The notes under the pieces were generated by a model. The model saw only the letters and a list, made by a program, of their open reading frames with translations, did not search any database and was not told where the DNA came from. Shown piece by piece: positions 2,913 to 60,156 of a stretch of 64,000 bases of DNA (the stretch's first letter is position 1; each line of letters begins with the position of its first letter). Source of the DNA: Nitrosophilus kaiyonis (GTDB lineage: Bacteria > Campylobacterota > Campylobacteria > Campylobacterales > Nitratiruptoraceae); the NCBI RefSeq assembly GCF_027943725.1, contig NZ_AP025696.1, forward strand, positions 721,501-785,500, read 5' to 3'. The translations under genes and the position numbers were made by a program.

Positions 2913-5900
2913 ATGAGAAAAATATTTTTGATGCTTTTTACTCTCATTTTATCTGTCGCAAATGGTACTGTGTTGACTCATGTTGTATCTTCCCCAGATA
3001 ATAAACCAGATTTATCAATTGTTGATGTAAAAATCAAAAAAAATATAAAATCTGGTGACATTATTGGTAAAAATAGAGAAATTTTAATCATTATAAAAAA
3101 TATAGGCAAAAAAACTGCACCAAAAAGTATTTTAAAATTGGTTTGTAAATCAAGAAATGGTTGTCCAAAAATTTTAAATGGAACAGTTAATATATCCTCA
3201 TTAAGGCCAAATCAAACAAAGAAAATATACTGGCCACTTAAATATAGCAATAAATATAGATGGAAAGAGGGAGAATATAGATTTAGAGCAACTGTTCATA
3301 TACTACAAACAAATTTTACTGCAGCCCAGGTTTCATCAATCGAGAAAAATATAAATAACAATAAAAAAGATTTTATTGTAAAAGTATTAGGTGAAGATAA
3401 GAGTGATTTAACAATAAGTAATATAAAACTTTCAAAAAAGATATGCTCTGGTGATTTAATAAGAAAAAGTGGAAAAATTTTAGTAACTATAAAAAATATA
3501 GGTAAAAAAGATGCTCCTGCTACTACATTAAAAGTTTCTTGTATTAATTTAGCTTCAAGTGGAGCCGTAACAAGTTTAAGTGCAAACTTTTCTGGGATTT
3601 GTCCAGACTTTTTAAAAGGAATGGCAAAAATACCTTCTATTAAATCTGGACATAGTTATATTTTAAAATGGCCTTATAATAAGAATAAAAAATGGAGAAA
3701 GGGTAAATATAAACTAGAGTTTTTTGTTGATGATAGAAATAGAATCAAAGAATCTAAAGAAGACAATAATAAAAAATATTTTATTTTAGAAGTAAAAGAG
3801 TGTAAACCAAAACTATCTATGGTGACAAAACCTACTTTAAAAGTTCCTAAATTTAAGAAAAAGATTATATTTGACAAAATTTTTCCATCATATTGGTATT
3901 CAGGCAAAAAATATGAAATTATAGTCAGAGGAAAAGGATTTAGTAAAAATTTAGATTTTAAATTTGATAAAAAATTTATAAAAATCATTTCAAAAAAATA
4001 TATAAATAGTAATATGTATAAATTAACAATAAATATATCTGAGAAAATAAAACCTTCAAAAACAAGACTCTATTATAAAGAGATTGCAAAAAATTCAAAA
4101 TATTTATATACCGGACTTTATGGTTGGTTAAAAGAGAAGAAAAAGCATAAAAAAATAGTTGTACCAAAAATAAAATTGCCGAAAATTTCATATAAAGTTC
4201 CCTTTATTAAAGGAAAAATTATATTAGAAAGGCCAAGATTTGGTAAAAGTGGAAGTGGGGATGTGTATCAGGATTTGGGGATACCTAAACTCAATGATAA
4301 AACAGTATTTTCATTTAGAGAGCAAAATCCAGGATTAGCTGATTGGTTTGAGCTTCAAATATTAGATAAAAGTGGGAAAGTTTTAGTAAAAAGAGATCTC
4401 GGAAAAAATCTATATTATAGAGCCGATCCTGATTTTGTATATGAGGTTTTATCTTTATTGAAACAAAAAGGATTGTTAAAAATTTCTAATATTTTGAAAA
4501 AAAGTTCAAAAATCAATACTTCTGCTTTGAAAAATATAAAAAATAATAGTAAAAAGACAAAAATTTCTAAAAAAGAGATAAACTATTTTAAATTAACTCC
4601 TCAAAAAAAGAGAAAAAGCTATATAGAAGAGCATAATGATGAGATAAGTTTATATTGGGCAGTAATTGGTAAAAAAAGATTTCCAAAAGATGGAATTGTA
4701 AAAATTGGTGATCATGAAAGAAAAATTGTCAGTTATGAAACTGTTTTAGTGGAAGAGTCTGAAAAATGGCCATTAAAAGTTAATGATTTTACAACTGGAT
4801 TTAGTTGTAGATCAACTAGTAAAGGAAACATAAATATTCAAAATTTAGATCTTGGGCAAGAAGAGCCCGGAAAAGTTTCCACAGTTAATTATGTTGGAGA
4901 TAGATTTGAACTTTCTGGCGTTTTTGATATATCAGATTCTCCATGGGGTTTTTCAAGACCAAATCAAATATTTACCAATGGTGGAATGATTGATGCAAGT
5001 CCTGTCCCAAGAAATATTTTTATTAGCTGGGGGGATGGTACAGTTGAATCATTAGATATGGTGCCATTGGAAAGTTTTGGTACAAGATTTAGGATAAATA
5101 ATATGATACATCAATATGCAAGTACTGGCAAGAAAAAGATAAAAATTTTTATGTTACCAGAATCAGAAATACAAAATATCAACGTATCAAGTATGGTTTT
5201 TGCATACGACTTTTATGAAGGCTCAAAAACAGCCTCATTAAATGCAGTTTCTATGAATAGTAGTTTTGATAATCCTTATTATCAAGTTTTGGGATTAAGC
5301 GGAGATTTACCAAAACCAAATGCAGATTTATTAAATATAGCAAAGCATGCCTATATTATATATTGTAATCAAATTGCAATTGAACCACGAAAAGACCTAG
5401 TTGCTTCAGGGCCTTTACATTTAGATGATATTTTTATTTATGATTATAACGGTGGAAAGGTAGAAAATGAGAAAAAATATGGTCTTAATATTCAGGAAAA
5501 TTTAAAAAATACACAAGTAAATATTGAAAAATATGGAACAAAAAACATTAAAATAGAGAAAAAATCTATACAGAAAAAAGTTGATAATAAAAATAACAAA
5601 AAAGAGTTTTTATTTAAAACTTCAACTGAAAAAATCAAAAATATTCAAGAATTTGCAAAAGGTATAGAATTAAGTGAATGTGATATATTGCAAGCAAATG
5701 CTAAATTAAGATATTATGGAAAAGGAAGTGTTCTTTTTAAATGGAAACTTATTGGTCCAGATGGAAATGAACTTATTTTAGAGAGTAAAAGAGAAGATAT
5801 AGGGCCATCAAGATTTAGAGAAAATCTAACAAAAGATAATTATAAGATTCCAACACAAGATTCTTATAGCTATTATCCTTTATTATCAAAAGTTTTATAT

Positions 5901-8660
5901 CTTGAAGAGTTTACCAAAAATAGCCAGTATGAATTGGTAGTTGATGCTATTGTTGATCCAATAACAGCTCTTGCTTTATCACAAGAAGAGATGATAAATA
6001 CTATAAAAGCAATTATTGAAAATATAAATTTGGGTGTAAAATATGCATCAAATAAAATTACTCCAAAAATCTATCTTGCAAAAAAAAGCAAAATATCAAA
6101 TCCATATATAGCACAAATTAAGCAAAGTGGTGCAAAATTTGGAGTACTTTCACCAAATAAAATTGCTTCGAAAAATATGCCAGTTGTAGCGAGTATTAAT
6201 AAGGTTTTAGATAAGAGCAATATAGGAAAAGCTCTTGCAAAAATTAAAATACCAAAAAGAAAGCCTTATTATGTAAAATCTGAGCCTTTTAGATTTAGTG
6301 TTGTTCCAAATTCAGGGAATAAACCTTGTAAATTAAAGCTAGTAACCAAATCTAATGATATTTTTTGGATAAGAAATATAAGTAATAGTGTAACAGTGTC
6401 TCAAGGAAATATTTATAATGGATCAGGAAACCTTATATTAAAAATCAATAGTTCTATTCCTCAAGAGGTGGCTGTTCCGGTTCTTATAAATAATTGGCAT
6501 GTTGGTGGATCTGATGGTATTACTGTTCAAAGTGGCAAAATAGATACCTCTTTAGATAGTAATTTTGTTGCAGACGGTGTTGAATTTGGATTGAAAAATC
6601 TATATTGTGAAGCCAAAAATAGTGATATGCTTTTAACTACAGATATAAAGCTGCAAAATGGGCTTTTGAGAAATATAGGAAGTAGTGATTCTCTTGAATG
6701 GAAAAAATTAACTTCACGAGTGGATGAGAATGGGAACTGGCATTATGAATTATCACAAAATAGAGAATTTAGTATAGGCTGGAGTGGATTTAGACTTAAA
6801 ACTTCAAAAATATATCTTGATTTTGATAAAAATTGGGGAAGAGGTGTATCAAATGAGTGTAGCCAATTTATTGAAAAAGAGTGGACAGGTGTTCATTTAA
6901 CTGATGCGACAATTTTCCCAAATACTTTTGACCTTGTACAAAGTGGATATACAAAAAATGTTAATAATTGGGGAATATCTGGAAATGGATTATGTGGTAA
7001 AGTCCAATTTGGACATTTTAGTACAAATATTAAAAAAGGAAGTATCTCATTTCAATCAATAGAAGCTGAAGCAAAAAATGGTAATTTTTATGCCACATAT
7101 AAAAATATGGATGTATATGTACCATGGCTTGATACTCATTTAAAAGGTGATGCTAAATTAGTAGATGGAGCAAACAGTAATGAGCCATCTATTGATTTTA
7201 AAGGTTTAAGTTCTTCAGATATTGAAAAAGATTATGGAGTTATACATCTAAAAGCTAGCGATCTTGTATTTGGAAGCTATAAAGATATTGGCTGGGGTGT
7301 GTGGAGCAATACATATTTTTCACTTTCAACAAAAACTAAAAAAATAGTTAATGAAGCTCCGGTAAATGGACTTGTTTATGGATTTGACGCAAGAGCATAT
7401 ATAACTGGAGAATCAAACACTAAAACTGTATCAATAAGCGGCAAAGCTGAATTTGGTGGTACTGAAGTTGATCTGATTTCTATGGAGATAACATCAAATA
7501 AAAGCGGCAAATCTCTTATAGATTTTGTTTTAAATACCAATTTTAATGTATCTGAAGTTTTATCTACAGTTCCTGTTACAGTTAGATACTCTATAAATAA
7601 TGAAAATGAAAATATTTTCGCGGTAGGTCCAAATGTTGATCCATTTGTAGTTCCAGCAGTTTTCCCAGAAGCAAATCCAAATATGGAATCAAGGATAGCT
7701 TTTAATTATGAAAAAGATAGTGGTGAAACATCACAAAATAATCCAGCTAAATATGACCAATATAGTGGAGATGTTGAGTTTGAACTATTTGAAGGTCAGA
7801 CTATAAGAGCTGCTTTTAGACTGGGATATATAAATCATCGAGATTACTGGATGATAAAAGCAAGTATGCCTTTTGAAGATGGCATAGAGCTAATGAGTCC
7901 AGGGCTTATGCTTTATGAAATAAGAGGAGGCCTTGCACACAATTTTCCATTAGATTCATTTAAAAAAGATGGAAGTATTTTTGATATAACACCAAAGATG
8001 GATGGAACATATATGTTTTTTGCAGGTGTTGATGTGGGGCATGAACAAAAAAATTTATATTATGCAAAGGGCGATCTTGTAATAAAAATAAATTGGCAGG
8101 CAAGATTAGATGCTAGAGCATGGCTGTTAGATTATAAGAGAAAAGGAGATGGAACTTTTCAAGGATATTTGCAATATGCAAATGGAAGCATAGATGGTTC
8201 TATTTGGGGAAAACTATCCCTTTTAAAAGGTGCAATTGTAGCTGAAATACCACAAAATGCAGCTGTACTTCATATAAGTCGAGGAGATTGGTACTTTTAT
8301 TTTGGAAGAAAAGAGGGTCCAAGAGTTAGGATGAAAGTACTAATATCTGAAGCGGACAGCTATCTTGAATTAGAACCTGGTAGATATGCTGTAGGGGCTA
8401 GAAATTTTTGGGGATTAAAAGGAAAATATGGAAGAATATATGGAGAATTAGAATCGGGATATGAGATTAGATTTCCTCCACATGTATCTGGATATGGAGA
8501 AGGTACACTTTCAGCTCAGATTTGTTGTTGTGAGATATGTATTGGTCCATCATTATCTGCTAGAGTAGAGGCAAGTGCACTTCCAATTCATGCAAAGGCA
8601 AGAGCATGTTTTGATTTTGGATGGCCAATAGGTGATATTTGTGGAACATTTAAATTCTAG
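2913..8660 (+). CDS. Giant secreted CARDB-domain protein
   Basis: A 1915-aa exported protein with a signal peptide (residues 1 to about 18). The N-terminal part has two related repeats, about residues 30-125 and 165-290. Each reads as a CARDB (cell-adhesion-related) beta-sandwich: DLSIxxVKIKK, then IIIKNIGKKxAP, then a W-K-x-G-x-Y/F strand. The centre is lysine-rich. Roughly the last 700 residues are beta-rich with many aromatic and glycine residues, and a CCCEIC cluster lies near the C-terminus. No membrane anchor is seen at the end. It is followed after 9 bp by a second secreted protein, so the pair are probably co-transcribed. A 283-bp AT-rich spacer upstream probably holds the promoter. 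Adhesion or an extracellular structural role is only an inference; I recognise no enzyme domain. Confidence 0.75.
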   Translation: MRKIFLMLFTLILSVANGTVLTHVVSSPDNKPDLSIVDVKIKKNIKSGDIIGKNREILIIIKNIGKKTAPKSILKLVCKSRNGCPKILNGTVNISSLRPNQTKKIYWPLKYSNKYRWKEGEYRFRATVHILQTNFTAAQVSSIEKNINNNKKDFIVKVLGEDKSDLTISNIKLSKKICSGDLIRKSGKILVTIKNIGKKDAPATTLKVSCINLASSGAVTSLSANFSGICPDFLKGMAKIPSIKSGHSYILKWPYNKNKKWRKGKYKLEFFVDDRNRIKESKEDNNKKYFILEVKECKPKLSMVTKPTLKVPKFKKKIIFDKIFPSYWYSGKKYEIIVRGKGFSKNLDFKFDKKFIKIISKKYINSNMYKLTINISEKIKPSKTRLYYKEIAKNSKYLYTGLYGWLKEKKKHKKIVVPKIKLPKISYKVPFIKGKIILERPRFGKSGSGDVYQDLGIPKLNDKTVFSFREQNPGLADWFELQILDKSGKVLVKRDLGKNLYYRADPDFVYEVLSLLKQKGLLKISNILKKSSKINTSALKNIKNNSKKTKISKKEINYFKLTPQKKRKSYIEEHNDEISLYWAVIGKKRFPKDGIVKIGDHERKIVSYETVLVEESEKWPLKVNDFTTGFSCRSTSKGNINIQNLDLGQEEPGKVSTVNYVGDRFELSGVFDISDSPWGFSRPNQIFTNGGMIDASPVPRNIFISWGDGTVESLDMVPLESFGTRFRINNMIHQYASTGKKKIKIFMLPESEIQNINVSSMVFAYDFYEGSKTASLNAVSMNSSFDNPYYQVLGLSGDLPKPNADLLNIAKHAYIIYCNQIAIEPRKDLVASGPLHLDDIFIYDYNGGKVENEKKYGLNIQENLKNTQVNIEKYGTKNIKIEKKSIQKKVDNKNNKKEFLFKTSTEKIKNIQEFAKGIELSECDILQANAKLRYYGKGSVLFKWKLIGPDGNELILESKREDIGPSRFRENLTKDNYKIPTQDSYSYYPLLSKVLYLEEFTKNSQYELVVDAIVDPITALALSQEEMINTIKAIIENINLGVKYASNKITPKIYLAKKSKISNPYIAQIKQSGAKFGVLSPNKIASKNMPVVASINKVLDKSNIGKALAKIKIPKRKPYYVKSEPFRFSVVPNSGNKPCKLKLVTKSNDIFWIRNISNSVTVSQGNIYNGSGNLILKINSSIPQEVAVPVLINNWHVGGSDGITVQSGKIDTSLDSNFVADGVEFGLKNLYCEAKNSDMLLTTDIKLQNGLLRNIGSSDSLEWKKLTSRVDENGNWHYELSQNREFSIGWSGFRLKTSKIYLDFDKNWGRGVSNECSQFIEKEWTGVHLTDATIFPNTFDLVQSGYTKNVNNWGISGNGLCGKVQFGHFSTNIKKGSISFQSIEAEAKNGNFYATYKNMDVYVPWLDTHLKGDAKLVDGANSNEPSIDFKGLSSSDIEKDYGVIHLKASDLVFGSYKDIGWGVWSNTYFSLSTKTKKIVNEAPVNGLVYGFDARAYITGESNTKTVSISGKAEFGGTEVDLISMEITSNKSGKSLIDFVLNTNFNVSEVLSTVPVTVRYSINNENENIFAVGPNVDPFVVPAVFPEANPNMESRIAFNYEKDSGETSQNNPAKYDQYSGDVEFELFEGQTIRAAFRLGYINHRDYWMIKASMPFEDGIELMSPGLMLYEIRGGLAHNFPLDSFKKDGSIFDITPKMDGTYMFFAGVDVGHEQKNLYYAKGDLVIKINWQARLDARAWLLDYKRKGDGTFQGYLQYANGSIDGSIWGKLSLLKGAIVAEIPQNAAVLHISRGDWYFYFGRKEGPRVRMKVLISEADSYLELEPGRYAVGARNFWGLKGKYGRIYGELESGYEIRFPPHVSGYGEGTLSAQICCCEICIGPSLSARVEASALPIHAKARACFDFGWPIGDICGTFKF

Positions 8661-14967: not shown

Positions 14968-16413
14968 ATGGCAACTGCGACTGCAACTGCTGCGCCTAAA
15001 AAAAATAGGGCAAAAGAGTATCTTAAAAACTGGATACCATATAGGTATAAACGTTATGTTTTTTTTGCAATAGTTACTATTGTGGCTTTGGTTCTTCCAT
15101 GGATAAAGATAAATGGAAATCACTTTTTCTTATTAAATTTTGACCATAAACAGCTTCATCTTTTCTTTGTTAGATTTGATATGCAAGAGCTATATTTAAT
15201 GCCATTCTTGCTTTGGATTTTGTTTTTTGGGATATTTTTTATTACTACTCTTGGTGGACGTGTTTGGTGTGGATGGAGTTGTCCGCAAACAATTTTTAGA
15301 GTAATTTATAGAGATCTATTTGAAACAAAACTTTTACACTTAAGAAAAAGAATATCAAATAAACAGATTGAACCAGATATGAGCAAGCCTGAAAATAAGG
15401 CTAAAAAAGTAATTGCAATTTTACTTTGGTCTGTTTTAGCATTTGTTGCTGCAGCTGATTTTATCTGGTATTTTGTTCCACCTGAAGACTTTTTTGCATA
15501 TATTCAAAATCCTGGCGAACACACAATATTAATGGGATTTTGGATTGGTATAGCTCTATTTTTAATAGCCGATATTGTTTTTATTAAAGAGAATTTTTGT
15601 ATATATATCTGTCCATATGCAAGAGTTCAGTCAGTTTTATATGATGAAGATACTTTTCAAACAGTATATGATTATAAAAGAGGCGGTAAGATCTATGATG
15701 AGCATGGCCATTTAATAGTACATAATAAAAAAGAGTTAAAAGAGCAAAATGAAAATGCTGAATGTACCCTTTGTGAATCCTGTGTTAAGGTTTGTCCAAC
15801 CCATATAGATATACGAAAAGGTATGCAGCTTGAGTGTATTAACTGTCTTGAATGTGCTGATGCTTGTACAAAAGTTATGGGAGCTTTGGGAAAAGAGTCT
15901 TTAGTTAGATGGACAAGTTATCATGCGTTGGAGAGTGGTGAAAAAACAAGGGTATTTAGATTTAGAATAATTGCATATATTGTAATGCTAACAATTGCAT
16001 TTGTAGCGCTTTTTTATATGGGAAGCAAAAAAGAGCATATGCTACTTAATATAAATAGAACAAGTCAGCTATATAAAATTGAGCCAAATGGTGTTGTTAA
16101 AAACTCTTATATATTCTTATTTCAAAATACAGAAAATGAAAAACATAAATACTATTTTGAAATTGTTGATAATAAAGATATAAAAATTGCAAGACCTAAA
16201 AAGCCATTTGATGTAATTCCAGGTAAAAAAGTTAAAAAAGTTGTAATTTTATATACAGATAAGGTGTTAGTAAAAGATACACATAAAGATACGCCAATTC
16301 CTATAACAATTAAAGCATATGCAGTTGATGATCCTAAAAAGATTGTTGTTACAAGAAAAACTATATTTGTTTATCCAAGATGGGATATTTATCAAAAAAA
16401 GATTAAAAAATAG
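14968..16413 (+). CDS. ccoG: Cytochrome c oxidase accessory protein CcoG
   Basis: Membrane iron-sulfur protein used in maturation of cbb3-type oxidase, thought to reduce copper for the CuB site. 481 aa, about five transmembrane helices. Polyferredoxin-type signatures: WCGWSCPQT and FCIYICPYARVQS in the membrane domain, then a 2x[4Fe-4S] domain with C266xxC269xxC272xxxC276P and C290xxC293xxC296xxxC300. The C-terminal periplasmic Ig-like FixG domain covers about 370-481. Length is normal. It implies that a cbb3 oxidase is encoded elsewhere in the genome. The dead-recombinase gene lies 3 bp upstream; a hairpin follows. Confidence 0.95.
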   Translation: MATATATAAPKKNRAKEYLKNWIPYRYKRYVFFAIVTIVALVLPWIKINGNHFFLLNFDHKQLHLFFVRFDMQELYLMPFLLWILFFGIFFITTLGGRVWCGWSCPQTIFRVIYRDLFETKLLHLRKRISNKQIEPDMSKPENKAKKVIAILLWSVLAFVAAADFIWYFVPPEDFFAYIQNPGEHTILMGFWIGIALFLIADIVFIKENFCIYICPYARVQSVLYDEDTFQTVYDYKRGGKIYDEHGHLIVHNKKELKEQNENAECTLCESCVKVCPTHIDIRKGMQLECINCLECADACTKVMGALGKESLVRWTSYHALESGEKTRVFRFRIIAYIVMLTIAFVALFYMGSKKEHMLLNINRTSQLYKIEPNGVVKNSYIFLFQNTENEKHKYYFEIVDNKDIKIARPKKPFDVIPGKKVKKVVILYTDKVLVKDTHKDTPIPITIKAYAVDDPKKIVVTRKTIFVYPRWDIYQKKIKK

Positions 16414-16416
16414 GCT

Positions 16417-16437
16417 AAAAGGCTTTTGCCTTTTGCC
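16417..16437 (+). terminator. Hairpin after ccoG
   Basis: AAAAGGC (16417-16423), TTTT, then GCCTTTT (16428-16434). It lies between the ccoG stop and the ribosome site of the next gene, so read-through may still occur. Confidence 0.6.
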
Positions 16438-16452
16438 ATAAAAGGGGGAGTA

Positions 16453-16812
16453 ATGCTTATAGCAATACCAGTTAAATTTAATAAAGAAAACCCTCCAATA
16501 TCTCCGCTTTTTGGCCATGCTAAATATTTTGCTTTTATAAAAGATAATGAAATTAAAATAGAAGAGAATCCATATGATGGTGGAGTGCAAGTAGTAAATT
16601 GGCTTTTGGAAAAGGAAGTTGATGTAATTATCACTCAACATATCGGCTTAAAGCCTTTTGTACTACTTCATAATGAGGGAGTTAAATGCTATTTCGGCGG
16701 AGATGGAAGGATTTTATTAAAAGATGCAATAGAAAATTTTAAAAAAGGAAATTTAGAAGAGATAAATGAAGAAAATATTGAAAAATTTGCAAGACATCAG
16801 CATAGGCATTAA
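16453..16812 (+). CDS. NifX/NafY-like iron-molybdenum cofactor binding domain protein
   Basis: 119 aa from the ATG at 16453, chosen over an ATG 27 bp upstream because AGGGGGAG lies just before it. It matches the dinitrogenase iron-molybdenum cofactor fold (PF02579 type): IAIPVKF at the N-terminus, SPLFGHAKYFAFI, a central WLLEKEVDVIITQHIG, then LHNEGVKCYFGGDGRIL and a histidine-rich tail HQHRH. Such small proteins bind metal clusters; many occur outside nitrogen fixation with unknown roles. There are no nif structural genes here. It lies between ccoG and a small membrane protein. Confidence 0.75.
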   Translation: MLIAIPVKFNKENPPISPLFGHAKYFAFIKDNEIKIEENPYDGGVQVVNWLLEKEVDVIITQHIGLKPFVLLHNEGVKCYFGGDGRILLKDAIENFKKGNLEEINEENIEKFARHQHRH

Positions 16813-51208: not shown

Positions 51209-51293
51209 GCGGGAGTGGCGGAATTGGCAGACGCGCCAGACTTAGGATCTGGTACCGCAAGGTGTGGAGGTTCAAGTCCTCTCTCCCGCACCA
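51209..51293 (+). tRNA. tRNA-Leu(TAG), integration site
   Basis: 85-nt tRNA with a long variable arm (GGTACCGCAAGGTGTGG), anticodon TAG in loop CTTAGGA, acceptor GCGGGAG/CTCCCGC, encoded CCA. Its last 14 bases are repeated at 59890-59903, so the gene stays intact after insertion of the element that follows. Confidence 0.98.
51280..51293 (+). repeat. Attachment site, left (tRNA end)
   Basis: TCTCTCCCGCACCA at the 3' end of tRNA-Leu. The identical sequence occurs at the right boundary. Confidence 0.9.
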
Positions 51294-51350
51294 TGTAAAC
51301 CTTCGGAAGCCCCATAAAATCGAACTTTAAGAAAACTCAAAAGCCGTTTG

Positions 51351-51369
51351 TACCGCAAAATATACCGCA
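51351..51369. repeat. Left TACCGCA arm repeats
   Basis: TACCGCA at 51351-51357 and 51363-51369, spaced 12 bp. The same 7-mer is in the tRNA-Leu variable arm (51253-51259). Candidate arm-binding sites for integrase. Confidence 0.6.
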
Positions 51370-52394
51370 AAAAATAATCAACATAAATATACTTTTATAG
51401 ACGAAAATGCTATAATGATTTTGATAGATTTTATTAATTTATTAAAGTATTTAGAAGTTTATTATAATATATTGAAGTTAATTAAAACTTTTAAGTTTTA
51501 GCCAAAAAATATATAATTTTTCTAATTTTCTTAAGTGTATAAAGTAAAAAATAGGCTCTTTAAGGTTACAAAACTTAAACTACATTATTTTAGCTCCTAT
51601 AAGATAAAAAACAGCGGTTTTTAGTATTGAAAACTCTGATTTTCAATACAATTAATTTTTTAAAACTTAAACTATTTACACTTTGATTATTGAGCTTTAA
51701 ATAAATGCTCTATAAGCCTAGCAGCTTTTTTATTTATAGGGAGATGGGGCAGTATTGCAGCTTTTTTATGATAAAAGCTATTTATAAGCAGTTTGGCTGG
51801 ATTGAAGTTATTATGATATTGCCCCCACTCCCCCTGGATTTAATAACTCCTTTAAGATGAGGTTGTTATTGGATCTTCTGAACCTCAAAATTTATTTAGT
51901 TTTTAGGGCGCCAACATGGTTGACACTTATATTTTTGTATGGATTTACACTCATGCTAAGTATTGATTAAGCGAAGATTGTATCAATAAATCAAATTACA
52001 TCTTGAAAGATTTGTATACCTAATAAAAGGTAAAAGTGATAATTTATATATGGAGACTGGGGCAGTGTTAAAATTTTTTACTTTTAACATCTTCACCGAG
52101 CGGGCAGTCAACTTTTCAAAAAATCCATTTTTGAGGGGGTAGGGTATCATAGATTTTATAGTAATGAGTTATTTTTGTATGTTTATATAAAAGCTATCTT
52201 TTTATGCGTTATTGAGTTAGCTACTTTACTTTTTTAATGGATTTCTTTTTCAAAAGCAAAAGAGTGCTTTTTAGCAATAGCGTTTAAATATATGCAAGTT
52301 TCCAAAATCGAAGTGGTTATAAATTAAGATTATATTAAGAAAAACTGCAAAAAAAAAGAAAAAATATGAGAAAAAAAATAAAAGTACTTTTTTG
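51370..52394. other. Gene-free part of the element's left end
   Basis: About 1 kb without a supportable gene. It contains two related words, GGGAGATGGGGCAGTATT near 51739 and TGGAGACTGGGGCAGTGTT near 52051, and T-rich stretches. It may be decayed cargo or regulatory DNA. Confidence 0.6.
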
Positions 52395-52772
52395 AAAAAA
52401 GCCCTGTTTTTTTGCCCTTTTCAAGATAACTTTCCCATAAATATGGAGTTTTAGCAGGGCTTTTTTTTTCTGATTAGCAGGGCTTTTTTTTTGAAAAATG
52501 CCCTTTTTATGCCCTAAAATATCTTAAAATACTATTATCTTAAGTAAATATTATAAATTTAATATAATTATGAATAAATTCCTATAAAGTTAAAAAGGGC
52601 AAAACTATATAAAAATAAGGGCAAAATTTATTTTAAAAAAGCCCTTTGTAAATATCGGTAAAATAGGGATTTTAAAAATATAAAGGGCAAAATTAAAAAA
52701 TAAAAAGCCCTGTTATATATACCATAAAATAGGGCTTTTAAATCAAAAAGGGCAAAAATTAGCCCATTTTTG
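52395..52772. repeat. Cluster of AGGGCAAAA/AAAAGCCCT motifs
   Basis: About fourteen GGGC or GCCC cores flanked by A or T runs, in both orientations, in 380 bp. Examples: AAAAAAGCCCT (52395), AGCAGGGCTTTT (52454 and 52477), AAAAAGGGCAAAAC (52592), AAAATAGGGCTTTT (52724) and AAAAAGGGCAAAA (52745). Neighbours in opposite orientation can pair as hairpins. It lies just downstream of the helicase gene. Iterons of a replication origin, or a terminator array, are both possible. Confidence 0.75.
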
Positions 52773-52787
52773 TAATAAATGAAAAAT

Positions 52788-54218
52788 TTATGAAATTATA
52801 TAGAAGCGTTGCCCATTACTTTTTATAGGAGTTTGATTAAAAATTTGAGGATAGCGCAGCTTGAGTTCTTTCATAATTTGCTGGGTGCTTTTATTCTCAT
52901 CAAATACTGTATTAAAATATAGTTTGATATTTTCTTTGCGTATTCTATTTTTTTCAAAATCTGCTTTCAATTCAAGATAAAGAATAGGTTTATCATCTTC
53001 TATTTTTTCAAAAAATTTAAGATTTTTTTGTATAAGTGATGTTACAAATAGTGTGTATTTATCATTAGTGGCTTCTATAAGTGCTTGTTTCTCTGGTGTT
53101 ATAATAGCTGTATTTGCTTTGATTGGATCTACTGGATAGTAATATAAATATTTTGCAAAATCTGCCAATTCTTGCTCTATTTGATATTTAAAATTATCAA
53201 ATGTTCCAAAACCTAAAAAACCTTTTTGCATTATTTTAATTTTTGAAGGAAAAACATTAAAGCGCCTATCTCCTATTTCAATTTCAAGTGGTATATGTTC
53301 GTTAGAAGTGATAAGTGTTGCTCCTTTAATCAGTATAGATTTATTAAGCGAGACAAATTTTTCATCAAGGGTAATAGATTGATTTGTAATAAGTGGCTTA
53401 ATGAAGTTTTTTATCTTTTTGTTTTCCTTGAATGTTCCTTGTGATATTTCATCAAGGTTATAAAAAAGTTTATTTTTGAAAAATGGGGCAATATATGTAT
53501 TTCTTAAAATACTATTGTTTATTTGGATTGTTTGTTCTTCTCCAAAAAGTGGGCGTATAATGTAGTCAAAAAAAATTCCTTTGCCTGTTCCTTGCTCTCC
53601 TATTAATACTATAGCAGTATTTGGTTTTTCCATCGTTTGCCAAAAATAGGCTAACCAATTTATGAAGTGTTCAAAATATTTCTCATTATCACTAACAAGA
53701 TGTTTTATAAGTCTTAAAATAGTTAGAGGTTCTTTTGTAGGCTCTTGAGTCATTTTCATAAATTCTGTAGGTTTAAATACATTGCGATACCATATTCCAT
53801 TTTTTTTAAAAAATTCTTGATTAATTTGCGGGTCAAATACCTCCTCACTTATCAATAATAAATCTAACTCGGATATATCAGGTTCACTTGCTCTCATTAG
53901 TCGCAAGCGTTTATTAATGATATTACTTAATACCTTTTCGGCTTTGCTTGGCTCTTTTTTAACTGGTTTGATGTGTGGAGAAGTTCGGAAATAAATATCT
54001 CCATCATTGCTAAGCCATAATGCTCCGCCTTTTTCATCTATAAGATTTATATATTCATTAGAGTTTAATTTTTTCCAATTGTTTGCCTTGAAAAGCTGGT
54101 AATTTGGGCGTTTTTTCGGTATAATATTATTAGTTACCTCGCATGTCTCACTTACTGGCTCAAGGGTTTTTTCTTGAGCCTCTAACTCTTTCAATGTATC
54201 TTTAATAATATTTGCCAT
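52788..54218 (-). CDS. SF3-type replicative helicase (D5/DUF5906-like)
   Basis: 476 aa. Walker A IGEQGTGKGIFFDYII (about 207), followed by a hydrophobic strand and acidic FYNLDEISQG (Walker B region), then a sensor segment LITSNEHIPLE (compare TSN of SF3). It belongs to the primase-helicase/D5-like group of plasmid and phage replication. The N-terminal 150 aa are unlike a known primase. It is the last gene of a block transcribed leftward and starts one base from the end of the Toprim gene. Confidence 0.85.
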   Translation of the reverse strand: MANIIKDTLKELEAQEKTLEPVSETCEVTNNIIPKKRPNYQLFKANNWKKLNSNEYINLIDEKGGALWLSNDGDIYFRTSPHIKPVKKEPSKAEKVLSNIINKRLRLMRASEPDISELDLLLISEEVFDPQINQEFFKKNGIWYRNVFKPTEFMKMTQEPTKEPLTILRLIKHLVSDNEKYFEHFINWLAYFWQTMEKPNTAIVLIGEQGTGKGIFFDYIIRPLFGEEQTIQINNSILRNTYIAPFFKNKLFYNLDEISQGTFKENKKIKNFIKPLITNQSITLDEKFVSLNKSILIKGATLITSNEHIPLEIEIGDRRFNVFPSKIKIMQKGFLGFGTFDNFKYQIEQELADFAKYLYYYPVDPIKANTAIITPEKQALIEATNDKYTLFVTSLIQKNLKFFEKIEDDKPILYLELKADFEKNRIRKENIKLYFNTVFDENKSTQQIMKELKLRYPQIFNQTPIKSNGQRFYIIS

Positions 54219-55063
54219 TATTTACCCCCTATAACTAATTTAATCTCATTTGATAGATAGTTTAAAATTCTCTCTTTTACCTTTAAAGAATTAGCCATAG
54301 ATTTATCACTTCTAACTTTCTTTGCTACATCATTGCAAAAGTCCCTAAAATCATAACCTTTTGGCAACTCTTTATCTAAAATATTTTCAAAATCTATTGG
54401 ATACACTTTGCAGCTTTTAAAATGCTCTTTTAAATGATTTATTGTTTTCTTGCAACTCTCATCATTATCAAGCAAAGCAAATATGTATCTATCTTTAATA
54501 TCTGGTGTATATGGATTATTAGCAAGATTTAAAGCTATGCTATCGCTTTGAAGTATCATATAGTTTAGCTCTAATAACTCCAGCAATAAAAATTCTCCTA
54601 TTCCATAACCTACAAATATGCTTGGATCATCTTCATCAAAAATCCTATAAGGGATAAACCTTTTGCTTCCGTATGTTTTCCACTTAATAGGATTTCCTTC
54701 TTTATCTGTTGCTTCTCTTATACAGATTGTCTTAACCTCATCATCTTTAAATAGTGAGATAGTCAAGCTTTTATATTTGCTGCTATATCCCAAATATCTA
54801 TCCTTAACTTCTTTTCCTTTTGCTAATCTCCAAATATCTCTATCTATTAGCTCATACATTAAAGTTGTTGTATTTATAAATCCATCTGGCAACTCAATAG
54901 ATGTTATTGCTGTCTCTTCTTGTTTTTTCAATACTTTTTTAAAGTTGATATGCCACTCATTCAAATTAAAGCTTTGCTTTTCCTCTTTATTGGTATAATT
55001 TTGTCTTGGTAATGTGTTGTGCAGTGGTTGGGATAGGTTGATAGGCTGAGGTAAATTATTCAT
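54218..55063 (-). CDS. Toprim-domain primase-like protein
   Basis: 281 aa. Toprim signatures: the GYGIGEFLLLELL segment with the catalytic Glu, and IFALLDNDESCKKTI with the DxD acidic pair, preceded by an RNAP-basic-like region with YKSLTISLF. Overlaps the helicase gene by one base and the zinc-finger-like gene by 8. Inferred role: primase catalytic part or DNA-end processing in a split replication complex. Confidence 0.8.
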   Translation of the reverse strand: MNNLPQPINLSQPLHNTLPRQNYTNKEEKQSFNLNEWHINFKKVLKKQEETAITSIELPDGFINTTTLMYELIDRDIWRLAKGKEVKDRYLGYSSKYKSLTISLFKDDEVKTICIREATDKEGNPIKWKTYGSKRFIPYRIFDEDDPSIFVGYGIGEFLLLELLELNYMILQSDSIALNLANNPYTPDIKDRYIFALLDNDESCKKTINHLKEHFKSCKVYPIDFENILDKELPKGYDFRDFCNDVAKKVRSDKSMANSLKVKERILNYLSNEIKLVIGGK

Positions 55064-55337
55064 ATCTTATCCCTAAACACTCAGCTACCCAAAGGGTAGC
55101 TTCTTTTAATGGTGTGTTATGGTGTTCGTGAATAAAAGCTACAATATCGCCTCCCCATCCGCTGCCAAAATCTTTAATATAGCCATCTCTTCTAATAGAA
55201 GTTGATGGCGTTCTCTCATCTCTTATTTTAAATTTGTAATCTCTGTTAATCTCATATCCTAAAGCTTCTAACATTGCTCTAACTTTTTCCCTATCTAAAC
55301 TTTGCTTTATCTGGTTTCTAATATCTTTTAGGTTCAT
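55056..55337 (-). CDS. DnaG zinc-finger-like domain protein without zinc ligands
   Basis: 93 aa. It follows the CHC2 primase domain: FKIRDERTPSTSIRRDGYIKDFGSGWGGDIVAFI is the counterpart of FHxEKTPSFxVxxxxxFxxFGxGxGGDxxxF, but the zinc Cys/His residues are absent. The end TLWVAECLGI also matches. Probably the nucleic-acid-recognition part of a primase split over neighbouring genes. Confidence 0.75.
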   Translation of the reverse strand: MNLKDIRNQIKQSLDREKVRAMLEALGYEINRDYKFKIRDERTPSTSIRRDGYIKDFGSGWGGDIVAFIHEHHNTPLKEATLWVAECLGIRYE

Positions 55338-55590
55338 TTTTGCTCTCTATTTTTTTAAGTTTGTTATACAACTCTTCTATTCTCTCAGCACTCATCCATA
55401 GATCCGCTTGCATTAATGATAATGCATCAATCAACATATCATCATCTAAAGATTGAATTACATACCATAGTTGAGAAGCAACTTTTCTAACTGTTGCTAT
55501 ATCTGCCTCATAATCTTGGATGGATATTTTTTGTTCGTTGCTTTTATTTATATTTTGTTCTGTTTGTTTTCTAATATCTTTTAGTGTCAT
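55318..55590 (-). CDS. Small protein of replication block, unknown
   Basis: 90 aa, mostly helical, no family recognised. Starts MTLKDIRKQTEQN and overlaps both neighbours (20 bases and 4 bases), implying translational coupling. Its N-terminus resembles that of the next protein (MNLKDIRNQIKQS), so the two may have duplicated a leader segment. Confidence 0.7.
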   Translation of the reverse strand: MTLKDIRKQTEQNINKSNEQKISIQDYEADIATVRKVASQLWYVIQSLDDDMLIDALSLMQADLWMSAERIEELYNKLKKIESKNEPKRY

Positions 55591-55826
55591 TTTTGCCCCC
55601 TTTTGATGTTGTTAAGAATTTTTGTTATCTCTTCTTTGTCTAAGGTTTTGATAGTTCCAACTTTTGCATTTTTTAGTATCTCTTCTAAGCTGGAGTCATC
55701 ACACTCTTTATTGGACAAGACATCCACAAATTCCAAAAACTCATCTACTCCTAATAAAAGATAAACACTCTTTGCCTTGCTCTCTCTGGCTCTTAAAGCC
55801 TCTCTTAATAGTTGGGATAGTGTCAT
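55587..55826 (-). CDS. Small first protein of replication block, unknown
   Basis: 79 aa, helical, with MTLSQLLREALRARES at the N-terminus. No family recognised. It is the first gene of the leftward block, with AAGGAGACC before the start, facing the divergent HTH gene across a 164-bp control region. Confidence 0.7.
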   Translation of the reverse strand: MTLSQLLREALRARESKAKSVYLLLGVDEFLEFVDVLSNKECDDSSLEEILKNAKVGTIKTLDKEEITKILNNIKRGQK

Positions 55827-55990
55827 TTGGTCTCCTTTTTGGTGTAGTGAAAATTATTTATAAACTCTAAATTGTTGAGTTTATTGAGAAAATAATACAA
55901 TAATATTTTAGAATATGTCAACAATAAAACAAAGAAATATTTAGTTTTTATGTTATAATTTTCAATAATTCTGAGTTCAAAGGTTTTGCT
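55827..55990. promoter_or_regulatory. Divergent control region of the element
   Basis: Contains TAAACTC (55861-55867) and GAGTTTA (55877-55883) as inverted arms, a likely operator, and a TATAAT box for the rightward HTH gene at 55954-55959. This is the expected place for a repressor switch. Confidence 0.6.
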
Positions 55991-56257
55991 ATGGATTTTC
56001 AATCTTTTAAAAAAACTCTTAAAAAATGCAATCTCACCATAAAAGAGTTTGCTAAAATATGTGGCCTTAATCCTAATTCTATTTCTACATCTTGGAAGTC
56101 TAAAAATGAAGTTCCTCAATGGGTGGATAGCTGGCTTCAAAACTACATCAAAGCTAAAACTCTTGATAATGTTAAAGATGTTGTATGTGATGATGAAGAT
56201 AAAGCTTCTAATACTTCTACTGATAAAAGCTCTCCAGCAAATAAAAATGATAAATAA
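55991..56257 (+). CDS. Cro/C1-type HTH protein, candidate element repressor
   Basis: 88 aa. Helix-turn-helix TIKEFAKICGLNPNSISTSW (about 16-35) near the N-terminus and an acidic, serine-rich tail. It is the only rightward gene of the element and is divergent from the replication block, as phage repressors usually are. Inference: it controls the switch in 55827-55990. Confidence 0.65.
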   Translation: MDFQSFKKTLKKCNLTIKEFAKICGLNPNSISTSWKSKNEVPQWVDSWLQNYIKAKTLDNVKDVVCDDEDKASNTSTDKSSPANKNDK

Positions 56258-56377
56258 TTCATTTCTATTTAGCCCTCTATTGTTTTCTTTAACATCATCT
56301 AATATAAATATACTTCCCATTCAAAACCTCGCTTAAAATCAAAATATGAGCTTTATTAAAAACTTGTTATAATGTAA

Positions 56378-56647
56378 CTATTTATTAAAAATGGCTTCTA
56401 TGTTCATTGGCTCTTTTGTCTCTTGCCATTTTCTAAGCTCTTGTTTAAAGTTGTTTTTCCTGCTAAAGATAAAAGCTCTTAAAAGTTCGCTAATCGTTAA
56501 GCCTGTCACTTTTTTAACCTCATCATTGCTTACATTCAATCTATTTTTAAAAATCTCTTTGCCTAATATATTATTAATATTGTCTGCCTTGTAAAAATCC
56601 ATCAAAATCCTTTCAAATTTAGTTATATTTGAATTTTTTAATTTCAA
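56378..56647 (-). CDS. Small protein, possible DNA-binding
   Basis: 89 aa, basic and helical, with KKVTGLTISELLRAF as a possible HTH. No family recognised. The sequence CTTAAAATCAAAATATGA at 56333 recurs nearly unchanged at 56681, beside this gene and the AlpA gene, as a possible shared control site. Confidence 0.55.
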   Translation of the reverse strand: MKLKNSNITKFERILMDFYKADNINNILGKEIFKNRLNVSNDEVKKVTGLTISELLRAFIFSRKNNFKQELRKWQETKEPMNIEAIFNK

Positions 56648-56702
56648 TTGAGTTATTTATCCTTTTAAAGAAAAAAGCTCTTAAAATCAAAGTATGAAAT
56701 TT

Positions 56703-56897
56703 TTATCTCTTTTGCTCTTCTATCCAGTTCATAACATCATTAAAACTCCAGCGCGAAGCTCTAACTCCTATTTTTATAGGTTTAGGAAACTTGCCATCTC
56801 GGATGTATTTATAGATAGTTGGTTTTTTCATACCAATAAGAGATGAAACCTCTTTGATTGTGATTAGCTTGTCCTGTGTAGTAGATGGTAGTATCAT
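56703..56897 (-). CDS. alpA: AlpA-family regulator
   Basis: 64 aa. MerR-like winged helix: LITIKEVSSLIGMKKPTIYKYI, then DGKFPKPIKIG and WSFNDVMNWIEEQ, matching the AlpA/excisionase pattern. In satellites AlpA proteins activate integrase or excision genes. It reads toward the unknown and replication genes. Confidence 0.88.
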   Translation of the reverse strand: MILPSTTQDKLITIKEVSSLIGMKKPTIYKYIRDGKFPKPIKIGVRASRWSFNDVMNWIEEQKR

Positions 56898-57069
56898 AAT
56901 TGCTCCTTATGGATTTTTTTGTTTATTGGAGTAATTATGAAATAAATATAGAGCAAAATAAAAATATTAAAATGTCAATTTTATGGTGTTTTTTATCTGT
57001 AGTTTAAAAGGCATTAATGTTTTACCTTGATAGTGGCAACAAATAGTTACCAAAAATTTGGTAGTGTAA

Positions 57070-57750
57070 TTATTTTTGTATAAGTGGAGTAGTAAAGAGT
57101 GCGTCTTGTATATTATAAGCCTTGAATATTACATTATTAAAATCTTTATTTATATTAATGACACTATCTAAAGTAATAGTTAAAAAAGCATCTATATCTT
57201 TTTTTAATGGTGCTGGCTGTAAATCTAAAAGATTTTCTTTTAAAAATTTTTTTGTAATTGGGCTATATTTAGTATGAACAAAATTTTCTGGGTTTTCTAT
57301 CATAAAATCTAAAAAGTCTTTAATTTCAAATAAATGGTAAAGCTTATTTTTTGAAAACATATCAAAATCAAACAATGATAAAAATTCTTTAAAATCTTTT
57401 GCTTTGTTTCTAATCCATTCTATTTGTTCTTTTTTTGATTTATTAATATAAGAAATTTTTTTTGCTTTTTTTCTTATATTAATATTTCTAAACTCTTCTA
57501 AGATATATAAAGAGCTATGGTTCAAAAAACGATAAAGGGTATTTTGATTTTTTCTATTTATCTCTTTTCCAATAAAAAAGCTTTTAACCTCATTAAGATA
57601 ATAATTTGCACTTTCTTCATCGCTGCTAACATATATAATAAAATTTCTATAATATGTTCTATCAAAAAAATCATCTAAAATTTTATGAGTGAAAATTTTA
57701 TTCATTGTTTCATATATTGCTTTTTCTTTTTCATTTTTGTTTTTATTCAT
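57070..57750 (-). CDS. Unknown 226-aa protein
   Basis: Very lysine and asparagine rich, predicted helical, no cysteines, signal or transmembrane helix seen, no family recognised. It lies between AlpA and the RelE toxin, where satellites often carry cargo. An ATTTCTTACCTCGC segment before the gene resembles that before the integrase gene (ribosome site GCGAGGTAA). Could be a phage-interference or structural cargo gene; this is a guess. Confidence 0.6.
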   Translation of the reverse strand: MNKNKNEKEKAIYETMNKIFTHKILDDFFDRTYYRNFIIYVSSDEESANYYLNEVKSFFIGKEINRKNQNTLYRFLNHSSLYILEEFRNINIRKKAKKISYINKSKKEQIEWIRNKAKDFKEFLSLFDFDMFSKNKLYHLFEIKDFLDFMIENPENFVHTKYSPITKKFLKENLLDLQPAPLKKDIDAFLTITLDSVININKDFNNVIFKAYNIQDALFTTPLIQK

Positions 57751-57904
57751 TTCTTACCTCGCTTGTTAATTTTGTTGCTATTAAATAAAATTTACATCTA
57801 AAATCTTCTCTATCTCGTTATATGCTTCTTTGCTTGATTTATAAGTGTTGTTTGAATATAGAGGTTTTCACATATAAAAATAAAATCACTATATTTTATA
57901 ACCA

Positions 57905-58180
57905 TCAATAAACCTCATCATGACTTCCAATATCAAGCAAAATTATCTCCTTATCGGTGATAATTAAATCTATAATAATTCTATAGCTCATAGATATTGA
58001 TATTGAATAGTATCTGCTTAATTTGCCTTGTAATTTGTGCAGTCTAAGGCTGGGATGGTAGGGATTATCCTCTAATAAGTGGAGAGTTTTATTAATTCTA
58101 TCCTTCATAGAGGGATTTTTCTTTATAATTTTTGCAGCCTTTTTAACAAATGTATCATCATAGATTAGCTTATAGCTCAT
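57905..58180 (-). CDS. RelE/ParE-family toxin
   Basis: 91 aa, RelE-like mRNA-cleaving fold: MSYKLIYDDTFVKKAAKIIKKNP, LHKLQGKLSRYYSISISMSYRIIID and a GSHDEVY tail. Active-site-type Arg and Tyr residues are kept. It overlaps the antitoxin gene by 11 bases. Confidence 0.87.
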   Translation of the reverse strand: MSYKLIYDDTFVKKAAKIIKKNPSMKDRINKTLHLLEDNPYHPSLRLHKLQGKLSRYYSISISMSYRIIIDLIITDKEIILLDIGSHDEVY

Positions 58181-58421
58181 TCTCTATTCTTTTCATTAAT
58201 TCATCTGCATTGCTTACATGTACTTTTCCAGCTCTTTTTTTCTCCATTAGATCTTGGTATGCAGCATCAAGCTCAGCTGCTCTAATCTGTTCATATCTTT
58301 CAAAATCTAAAACAATATACTTTGGCTTTCCTCTAAAGGTAATAACCGCTTCATCTTTAGCTTGTAATTCACTCTCAATAGCTTTTATTCCTTTTACCTT
58401 TAAATCGTTTGCAGTAATCAT
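58170..58421 (-). CDS. Phd/YefM-type antitoxin
   Basis: 83 aa: MITANDLKVKGIKAIESEL with the VITFRGKPKYIVLDFERYEQIR beta-hairpin region of Phd/YefM proteins. It precedes and overlaps the RelE gene, the usual order. It probably keeps the element in the population. Confidence 0.85.
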   Translation of the reverse strand: MITANDLKVKGIKAIESELQAKDEAVITFRGKPKYIVLDFERYEQIRAAELDAAYQDLMEKKRAGKVHVSNADELMKRIENEL

Positions 58422-58477
58422 TATCTATCCTTTTAATCGTATTGTTTATAATATTATATCAAAGTATATAATAGTAT

Positions 58478-59710
58478 TTAACCTTTTAAATATTCTTCCC
58501 ACCATTTTAAAAGTTTTCTTCTTTCCTCTAAAAAATCGCTTCTTAAATAGCTTTGTGTAACTTTATTTCCTATGTTATGGTGCAGTTGTGCCTCTATTGC
58601 TTCAAAGCTAAATTTATGCTCTTTTTGCCTTTCTAATGCAATAGTTTCAAAGCTGCTTCTAAAGCCATGTAAGTCCTGCTGAGGTTCGTTTAAATCTATT
58701 TTTAGGGTTTTTCTTAAAGTATTACTTGAAATTGGCTTGTAAATACTGATAGGGCTGCAAAAAACAATATCGCTATAATTATTTAATTTCGCAGCTTCTT
58801 TTAGTACCTTTTTTATTTCATCAGTTATAGGAATACGAAAAGGCTCTTTTTTCGTTTTCATTGCTTCAGCTGGATATATTATTACCTTCTTATCAAAATC
58901 AATATAGCTCCATTTTAAATTGGATACATTCCCAAATCTAACCGCAGTTAGTGCCAAATATTGAAGAGGCAAAGATATATAAGGATTTTTCAAAGAGATT
59001 ATCTTTTTATAAATCGTTTTTATCCTGTCATCGGTTATAGCTTTTAATTTAATTGGCTTGTGCTTTGGTATTACTTTATCAATATCTATCTTGCTGGCTG
59101 GATTGCTTTGTATAAAATCGTTATGGATAGCAAAATCAAAAAGATTGTTAATAATCCTAAAAACTTCTCTTGCTTTATAGGTTTTATCATTGCTTCTATA
59201 ATCATTTGGAAGTTTTGTTTTATATGTATTTTTGACTATTTTTAAAATATCCTCTTTATTAATTTCATCTATTGGTAAATTTCCTATAAAAGGGATGATG
59301 TAGTTATTAAATGTACCAATATAATTTTTCTTTAATCTTGCTTCACTTACCTCTTTTGCTTTATGCTCAATGAATTTATCTATTACATATTTGCAGCTCT
59401 TTTTATTGGCTTGCAATTGCTGTTTTATTCTTTGCTCTTTTTTATGTCTGTTTGGATCTATTCCTTGTCTTATCATCTCTTTTAGTTCATATTTTATTTT
59501 TCTTGCTTGTGATAGAGTTATTTGGGGATATTCTCCAATAGTGTAGGTATTTCTTTTTCCTAAGTAACTATAATCTAATCTAAAAATTTTTTTGCCATTA
59601 CTTTTTATAAGGATATAGAGGTTTTCACCATCAATTAATTTATAATTTTTTTCTTTTGGCTTTGCATTCTTAATCTGCAAATCATTAAGAGCATTTATCT
59701 TTTTTGGCAT
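58478..59710 (-). CDS. int: P4-type tyrosine integrase
   Basis: 410 aa. N-terminal DUF4102 arm-binding domain (LNDLQIKNAKPKEKNYKLIDGENLYILIK, about 5-33), core-binding domain, and catalytic domain with Arg in TAVRFGNVSNLKW, H-x-x-R in LHGFRSSFETIA, and the catalytic Tyr in TQSYLRSDFLEE. Reads toward the element and lies next to the right attachment site. It should catalyse exchange at the tRNA-Leu end. Confidence 0.96.
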   Translation of the reverse strand: MPKKINALNDLQIKNAKPKEKNYKLIDGENLYILIKSNGKKIFRLDYSYLGKRNTYTIGEYPQITLSQARKIKYELKEMIRQGIDPNRHKKEQRIKQQLQANKKSCKYVIDKFIEHKAKEVSEARLKKNYIGTFNNYIIPFIGNLPIDEINKEDILKIVKNTYKTKLPNDYRSNDKTYKAREVFRIINNLFDFAIHNDFIQSNPASKIDIDKVIPKHKPIKLKAITDDRIKTIYKKIISLKNPYISLPLQYLALTAVRFGNVSNLKWSYIDFDKKVIIYPAEAMKTKKEPFRIPITDEIKKVLKEAAKLNNYSDIVFCSPISIYKPISSNTLRKTLKIDLNEPQQDLHGFRSSFETIALERQKEHKFSFEAIEAQLHHNIGNKVTQSYLRSDFLEERRKLLKWWEEYLKG

Positions 59711-59737
59711 TAGTTACCTCGCTTATTTTTTATCGCG

Positions 59738-59769
59738 TACCGAAATTTTGTACCGCATAATGTACCGCA
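59738..59769. repeat. Right TACCGCA arm repeats
   Basis: TACCGAA at 59738, TACCGCA at 59751 and 59763, spaced 13 and 12 bp. They mirror the left pair at 51351 and 51363. Confidence 0.6.
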
Positions 59770-60156
59770 TAAAAATTTTACTTATAATAAACTTAAATAA
59801 ACCACAATAGTTTAAAAGTACCATAAAATAGGAATTATAAAGGGGTAAAATATCCTTAAGGAAACTTAGATAAACCTTAATTCGGTGCGTCTCTCCCGCA
59901 CCACTGAAATTTTAAATTTATCCTCTCTTTATTAGTTATAAGCTTGTAAAATATTTTAATCTTCAAAAAATATAGCAATAGCATAAAAATAATTTCTTTT
60001 AGTTTATATATCTTTAATTTAATGTGTATTAATTATTTCTTTCAAAACCGCAATATTTTTCAATCAATAAAGTTTTTATATAATAAAAAGCTTATAAAAA
60101 TTTTTCATAAATATCATCAATTTATATTATGGTAGAATATTTTTAAAGGAAAATAT
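59770..60156. other. Right end of element and spacer before MBL gene
   Basis: The rest of the element's right end runs to the attachment site, then an AT-rich spacer. No gene is supported. The MBL gene promoter probably lies in the last 100 bp. Confidence 0.6.
59890..59903 (+). repeat. Attachment site, right
   Basis: TCTCTCCCGCACCA, identical to the end of tRNA-Leu. The base before differs (G here, C in the tRNA). Confidence 0.9.

Follow-up and report, generated by a model that had tools for sequence, protein, structure and literature searches.

What kind of mobile element occupies the tRNA-Leu(UAG) gene of Nitrosophilus kaiyonis, and how would it move between cells? The host belongs to the same deep-sea-vent family as Nitratiruptor (Campylobacterota) and has a complete genome of 1.77 Mb, of which a stretch of 64,000 nucleotides (NZ_AP025696.1, positions 721,501 to 785,500; hereafter the window) was analysed. 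In this window, an island of 8,624 bp (51280-59903) is inserted in tRNA-Leu(UAG) with an exact 14-bp repeat at each end. Pfam and PHROG profile searches gave no capsid, terminase, portal or relaxase match among the island proteins, which agrees with a first-pass annotation that had noted both the repeat and the lack of packaging and conjugation genes, and had proposed a helper-dependent satellite. The island is most probably a cos-type phage satellite, an element that would excise, replicate by itself and be packaged by a phage of the HNH/TerS/TerL type. Dependence on a helper is strongly supported at the sequence level, because the island has its own replication module and a cos-like site that also occurs in HNH-type cos phages, because its close relatives lack structural genes and a sister species has the empty site, and because genes are shared at the DNA level between its relatives and a phage-like contig (L045).

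Site-specific insertion into tRNA-Leu(UAG)

The 14-bp core constitutes the final 14 bases of the tRNA-Leu gene, which is the last in a run of five tRNA genes. A natural empty site, which the first-pass annotation expected in sister strains if the island is mobile, is present in a genome of the same genus (G020), where tRNA-Leu lacks the island and a homologue of the right-flank CYTH gene of the window follows within about 300 bp. The metallo-beta-lactamase-fold gene at window 60157 is not located between tRNA-Leu and the CYTH homologue in G020, and the match is thus to the outer flank. On this comparison, 51280-59903 is an insertion, site-specific into tRNA-Leu. The integrase gene lies at the island end distal to the tRNA gene, and short repeats near both ends are candidate integrase arm sites (Table 1); at the position of the left pair, relatives carry another repeat pair. 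The tRNA-Leu(UAG) gene carries satellite-like islands in several genomes. Between the helicase gene and tRNA-Leu, about 1.5 kb contains no convincing genes; this region appears to house a candidate origin and a candidate packaging site.

A candidate packaging site shared with HNH-type phages

Five elements in other genomes (L011, L012, L043, L044 and L046) share a core of helix-turn-helix (HTH), zinc-ribbon, TOPRIM-like and superfamily 3 (SF3) helicase genes. Comparison of non-coding blocks revealed a stretch of about 90 bp common to the window, L043, L044, L046 and L045, and this cos-like site is conserved amid the otherwise diverged non-coding DNA of L043, L044, L046, a further island (L135) and the window. 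A model of the L043, L044, L046 and L045 sites, or of any three of them, matches the window at about 52059 (E 2.5e-8 to 2e-7). The block gave no Rfam RNA apart from tRNAs, so that no known RNA accounts for the conserved site.

When a sequence-only model of five sites (window, L043, L044, L046 and L045) was run on 397 Campylobacterota genomes, the inspected matches outside the known elements fell into two classes. The first comprises HNH-terS junctions of prophages (L139, L140, L144, L145 and L148), in which terL comes next (in pieces in L145), followed by a portal gene in four of the five; these gene families were confirmed by profiles for L139, L144 and L145, and assigned by likeness for L140 and L148. 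The HNH-terS junction is the usual position of cos in HNH cos phages. The HNH protein of L139 shares 42% identity with its counterpart in staphylococcal phage phiPVL108, which likewise adjoins terS. The second class comprises islands in which no head genes were recognised, located near tRNA-Leu, tRNA-Met, tRNA-SeC or tmRNA (L135, L136, L142, L143 and L146), of which the L135 element is 8.2 kb in length with a 36-bp attachment (att) repeat.

A phage-only model from four prophage junctions found the window site at 8.6e-9, a score that is circular in part, as the junctions came from a search model including the window. As a control, the same genomes were searched with the HNH protein alone, which gave 14 genomes; of the junctions missed by the site model, the eight with the AATCTCTA block were taken, and these show the same plan of G-box, AATCTCTA and CACCGA core. 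The model of these eight junctions has a single window match below E 5, located inside the site (52087-52124) with 9.6 bits and E 0.059 over 128 kb (the 64-kb window, both strands); in a 48-kb search it matches the HNH-terS junction of Campylobacter phage CJIE4-4 at 6.5e-14. The link between the window site and the phage sites thus has three supports: a strong score with some circularity, an unbiased score that is weak and falls exactly at the right place, and, independently, the location of the phage matches at HNH-terS junctions.

Several points weigh against packaging of the island by such a phage. The four-junction test has the circularity described above, and the unbiased test is the weaker of the two. 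No recognisable copy of the site was found in L011 or L012, suggesting that only part of the lineage carries it. In the host genome, searches for an HNH gene of this type, Terminase_6N or an L045-type capsid gene were negative, and an HNH of this type was not found among family members in the phylum genome set.

The site might instead have a regulatory role conserved among phages, for example as a late promoter, in a satellite that is packaged headful or by another helper class. A TTTGATATAAT-like box after the G-box in L046 and L011 would fit such a role, as would the two related elements that lack the site. The gene downstream is inconsistent among the satellites, however, and the core aligns with the gap between HNH and TerS, the location of cos in HNH cos phages. 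Headful packaging is further disfavoured as the window lacks terS, which headful S. aureus pathogenicity islands (SaPIs) carry (PMC5052747). Overall, this explanation is considered highly improbable.

Other arrangements of similar sites were seen. In the window, a second, inverted G-box at 51823 was considered as a second cos and set aside, being matched by neither the satellite nor the HNH-junction models. L136 has two cos-like sites (6961-7049 and 16396-16475) that lie 9.4 kb apart around a tRNA-Met islet (26-bp att, 10.6 kb), the second just beyond att, as if left by a tandem or older element. In L138 (8091-10126), an island end at tRNA-Met has terS and a cos-like site with no terL after them, and is possibly part of a terS-bearing satellite. 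L142, L143 and L146 are islands of the integrase/AlpA type located at tRNA-SeC and tmRNA; they share the cos-like site but have other replication genes, that of L146 being an O-like initiator.

Related elements and gene exchange

Four of the five core-sharing elements lie at tRNA-Leu: L043, L044, L046 and L012 (genome G013; 30-bp att, 8.38 kb). L011, from the same genus as the host, is located in tmRNA with a 17-bp att and is 10.5 kb in length with an IS21-type insertion, or about 8.4 kb without it; the IS21-type pair (3767-5720) stands directly behind a shortened integrase open reading frame (ORF). The set of integrase, replication module and regulator is conserved in L011, L012, L043 and L046. 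L011 and the window share 80% DNA identity over the replication genes, yet their targets and integrases differ, indicating that modules have been exchanged. No capsid, terminase or relaxase genes were present among the examined ORFs of the five relatives. Such genes, which the first-pass annotation had named as evidence against a satellite, were seen only beside a distant helicase relative (a relaxase, in L051) and in the remnant-like L045 (structural genes).

L045 (475-10620) is a phage-like contig from the same Helicobacteraceae metagenome-assembled genome as L043. It carries HTH, unk143 and zinc-ribbon genes of the satellite type together with a decayed HNH gene, the cos-like site, terS and a partial capsid gene; the HNH gene is frameshifted and the capsid gene lacks roughly its N-terminal third, so that L045 looks like a phage remnant. 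Over unk143 and the zinc-ribbon gene, L045 shares about 980 bp with L043 at 88% DNA identity, and 419 bp and 212 bp with L012 at 93-95% identity. A second non-coding stretch shared by L043 (7829-8052) and L045 (8601-8826) has 64% identity over 236 bp and contains GTTGAC/GTCAAC inverted repeats.

L045, an existing phage-like sequence with the same zinc-ribbon gene, raises the possibility that the island is a decayed prophage which kept its integrase, replication genes and own cos and lost its head and tail genes. The helicase would be consistent with this, as its nearest phage match is the C-terminal, helicase part of the phage NrS-1 primase (31.6% identity). By contrast, the ORFs of the island are intact, no HNH or terS remnant flanks the window cos, and compact elements of 8.2-8.6 kb recur across genomes with differing integrases and att sites, which is not expected from random decay; a decayed prophage is therefore considered quite unlikely.

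SF3/VapE-type helicases and AlpA occur on non-phage islands too, and the island might be an integrative mobilisable element or integrated plasmid whose conjugation is helped in trans, the G-rich site being an origin of transfer (oriT) or regulatory DNA. This possibility gains from L051, where a MobA/VirD2 relaxase (2.8e-34) lies within 8 kb of a helicase relative of 23% identity. Within L051:59-4860, a tet(M)-like ORF and ORFs for the MobA/VirD2 relaxase lie close to tRNA-Leu(UAG) and the distant SF3 helicase; the region may represent a mobilisable island using the same tRNA-Leu target, although no borders of such an element could be located. Nevertheless, no relaxase is present in the window island or the examined close relatives, the helicase had zero matches in 72,556 plasmids, and recurrence of the site at phage HNH-terS junctions is unexpected for an oriT. 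Mobilisation by conjugation is thus considered very unlikely for the island.

Gene content and replication module

Twelve plausible genes lie between the att copies, 11 on the minus strand; the sole plus-strand gene encodes the HTH protein, divergent from the replication operon. The P4-type integrase, AlpA and this divergent HTH gene of the first-pass annotation are all supported by profile matches (Table 1). Generic Pfam HTH matches are weak; the protein is kept in the five related elements at 54-77% identity. Of the toxin-antitoxin pair that had been annotated, the toxin is above the RelE/StbE cut-off and the antitoxin is assigned by position only; the toxin gene shares 74% DNA identity across 185 bp with a copy in the G013 element. 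The 226-aa gene matched no defence function in PADLOC or NCBIfam. Its broken relative (L164 and L165; G001:C1:1338680-1339290) is in an SB155-2-type genome.

Table 1. Features of the island and its integration target (window coordinates).
Feature	Position	Strand	Evidence
tRNA-Leu (TAG), integration target, whole at left junction	51209..51293	+	ARAGORN; Rfam RF00005 1e-10
attL, 14-bp core TCTCTCCCGCACCA, inside tRNA-Leu 3' end	51280..51293	+	repeat search
Candidate integrase arm sites, left: two direct TACCGCA repeats, 12 bp apart	51351..51369	+	function inferred
Candidate cos site: G-box, CACCGAGCGGGC core, AT-rich spacer, second G-box GAGGGGGTAGGG	52056..52147	+	models not trained on window site
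Iteron cluster, candidate replication origin: 13 GGGCA/TGCCC/AGGGCT/AGCCCT matches	52400..52755		0/300 shuffles reach observed repeat count
SF3-type helicase (DUF5906/VapE-like), 476 aa	52788..54218	-	4e-12
TOPRIM-like putative primase subunit, 281 aa	54218..55063	-	window copy without Pfam match
CHC2-like zinc-ribbon protein, putative primase subunit, 93 aa	55056..55337	-	Pfam 4e-4, under cut-off
Uncharacterised, 90 aa, replication operon	55318..55590	-	ORF list
Uncharacterised, 79 aa, replication operon	55587..55826	-	ORF list
Divergent HTH protein, probable regulator	55991..56257	+	phrog_8898 7e-16
Protein without assigned family, 89 aa	56378..56647	-	homologues in two other cos-bearing elements (38% and 30%)
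AlpA-type excisionase/activator	56703..56897	-	PF05930 1e-13; phrog_66 5e-12
226-aa accessory gene, candidate cargo	57070..57750	-	broken relative in G001
RelE/StbE-family toxin	57905..58180	-	TIGR02385 above cut-off
Putative antitoxin partner	58170..58421	-	position and overlap with toxin gene; no family match
P4-type tyrosine integrase, 410 aa	58478..59710	-	Arm-DNA-bind_3 5e-23; Phage_integrase 1e-12; phrog_1 1e-57
Candidate integrase arm sites, right: three TACCG(C/A)A repeats	59738..59769	+	function inferred
attR, 14-bp copy identical to attL	59890..59903	+	repeat search

The zinc-ribbon protein is 77-90% identical in relatives. The protein encoded next to the helicase is termed TOPRIM-like because its own Pfam match is absent and its G013 homologue (L012:10194-11036) matches Toprim_3 at 1e-5, just under the cut-off; an AlphaFold model of it (predicted local distance difference test score 40) was not used. 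Directly behind the helicase gene, the window and its relatives have an iteron cluster, each element with its own short repeat: GGGCA/AGCCCT in the window, GGGTGGA in L011, ACTCACCC in L012, GATACAC in L043, GGTGACA in L044 and GGTGCA in L046. For each of these six elements, none or almost none of 300 shuffled sequences equalled its top repeat count. As in P4, the iterons would form an origin bound by the helicase-primase of the element itself.

Search for a helper phage

When 2.9 million viral contigs were scanned with the zinc-ribbon protein, the helicase, the L045 capsid protein and a cos pattern, nothing was found, and hence no packaged copy is documented. Phage NrS-1 is present at 100% identity in G001, a genome of the same family as the host, indicating that G001 is Nitratiruptor sp. 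SB155-2 or very near to it. NrS-type phages were considered as helpers and set aside: no G-box was found in NrS-1 and no copy of the site in NrS-1-type terminase regions, and for NrS-4 the cos models, including the eight-junction model, gave no significant match.

Proposed life cycle

In the proposed cycle, a helper phage, not resident in the host genome as far as searched, would infect the cell, triggering AlpA and relieving the HTH regulator by analogy with characterised satellites (PMC6092414, PMC10803314). The integrase would then excise the island at the 14-bp core via the TACCGCA arm repeats, and the SF3 helicase-primase system would amplify it from the iterons into concatemers, which the HNH-TerS-TerL of the helper would cut at the satellite cos and fill into helper capsids. 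Packaging might give either small heads filled with cos-to-cos units or full-size heads filled with multimers (about 34 kb for four copies); concatemers, as in phage-inducible chromosomal minimalist islands (PICMIs), are slightly favoured because no capsid-remodelling gene was recognised. The toxin-antitoxin pair might stabilise the island, and the 226-aa gene is perhaps cargo or anti-phage.

Comparison with known satellites and phages

Like phage satellites in general, the island is an integrative element that encodes integrase, regulatory and replication functions but no structural proteins. Like phage-inducible chromosomal islands (PICIs), it has an integrase, replication module and regulator in a conserved organisation and no structural or lytic genes; PICIs are typically 12-15 kb, larger than the 8,624 bp of the island, and prophages never occupy their attachment sites (PMC6092414). 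Unlike capsid-forming PICIs, it has no own capsid or packaging genes by profile searches. The Gram-negative PICI EcCICFT073 likewise has int, alpA and primase/replication genes and is cos-packaged by a temperate helper, but differs in its lambda/phi80-type cos, its integrase site and its induction and transfer demonstrated at the bench (PMC6092414). SaPIbov5 and SaPIbov4 are also satellites with a helper-type cos, and their packaging phages have HNH beside terS (PMC5052747); unlike the island, they are about 14 kb, have virulence cargo, other replication genes, a Firmicutes host and demonstrated transfer, and contain the capsid-size gene ccm (PMC8569155).

PICMIs of Vibrionaceae resemble the island in their small size, int-alpA-primase core, lack of a capsid-remodelling gene and marine hosts, whereas they lie next to fis rather than in tRNA-Leu, form an 8-copy concatemer of about 49 kb and use a virulent helper (PMC10803314). 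P4-like satellites share the P4-type integrase, AlpA/Vis-type regulator, primase-helicase replication and tRNA target (PMC8628076, and in part general knowledge). P4 itself has a single alpha primase-helicase and psu, sid and delta, whereas the primase parts of the island are separate ORFs and its proteins have no match to phage morphogenesis families, so that no psu/sid/delta-type genes were found. Phages NrS-1 to NrS-5 of the same bacterial family differ in being complete siphophages of 37-43 kb (PMC9723563). The earlier statement that this gene order defines PICIs and P4-like satellites is too strong: the order by itself is not diagnostic, and the island departs from these groups in size and in some P4 features. 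The island would operate in the manner of SaPIbov5 or EcCICFT073, but membership in P4, PICI or PICMI is not established, and it is set apart as its own variant.

Implications

Enterobacterales, Vibrionaceae and Firmicutes are the sources of the well-described satellites. No satellite described from Campylobacterota was found in the open-access papers searched; the first-pass annotation had remarked that few are described in this phylum. Satellites of the cos type are already known (SaPIbov4/5, EcCICFT073). It seems reasonably likely that Campylobacterota, from vent bacteria to relatives of gut pathogens, host a phylum-wide guild of satellites with several unrelated replication types, which would converge on one HNH-phage cos signal (including that of Campylobacter CJIE4-type prophages) and swap modules with those phages. 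The HNH-terS cos would provide a searchable DNA signature for finding satellites unrelated in genes and pairing them with helper phages, and the split zinc-ribbon/TOPRIM-like/SF3 replicase with its element-specific iterons would offer a natural series for the co-evolution of origin and initiator. If a cos-type satellite lineage does exist in Campylobacterota, helper-dependent transfer would reach vent chemolithoautotrophs as well as a phylum that includes major pathogens of humans.

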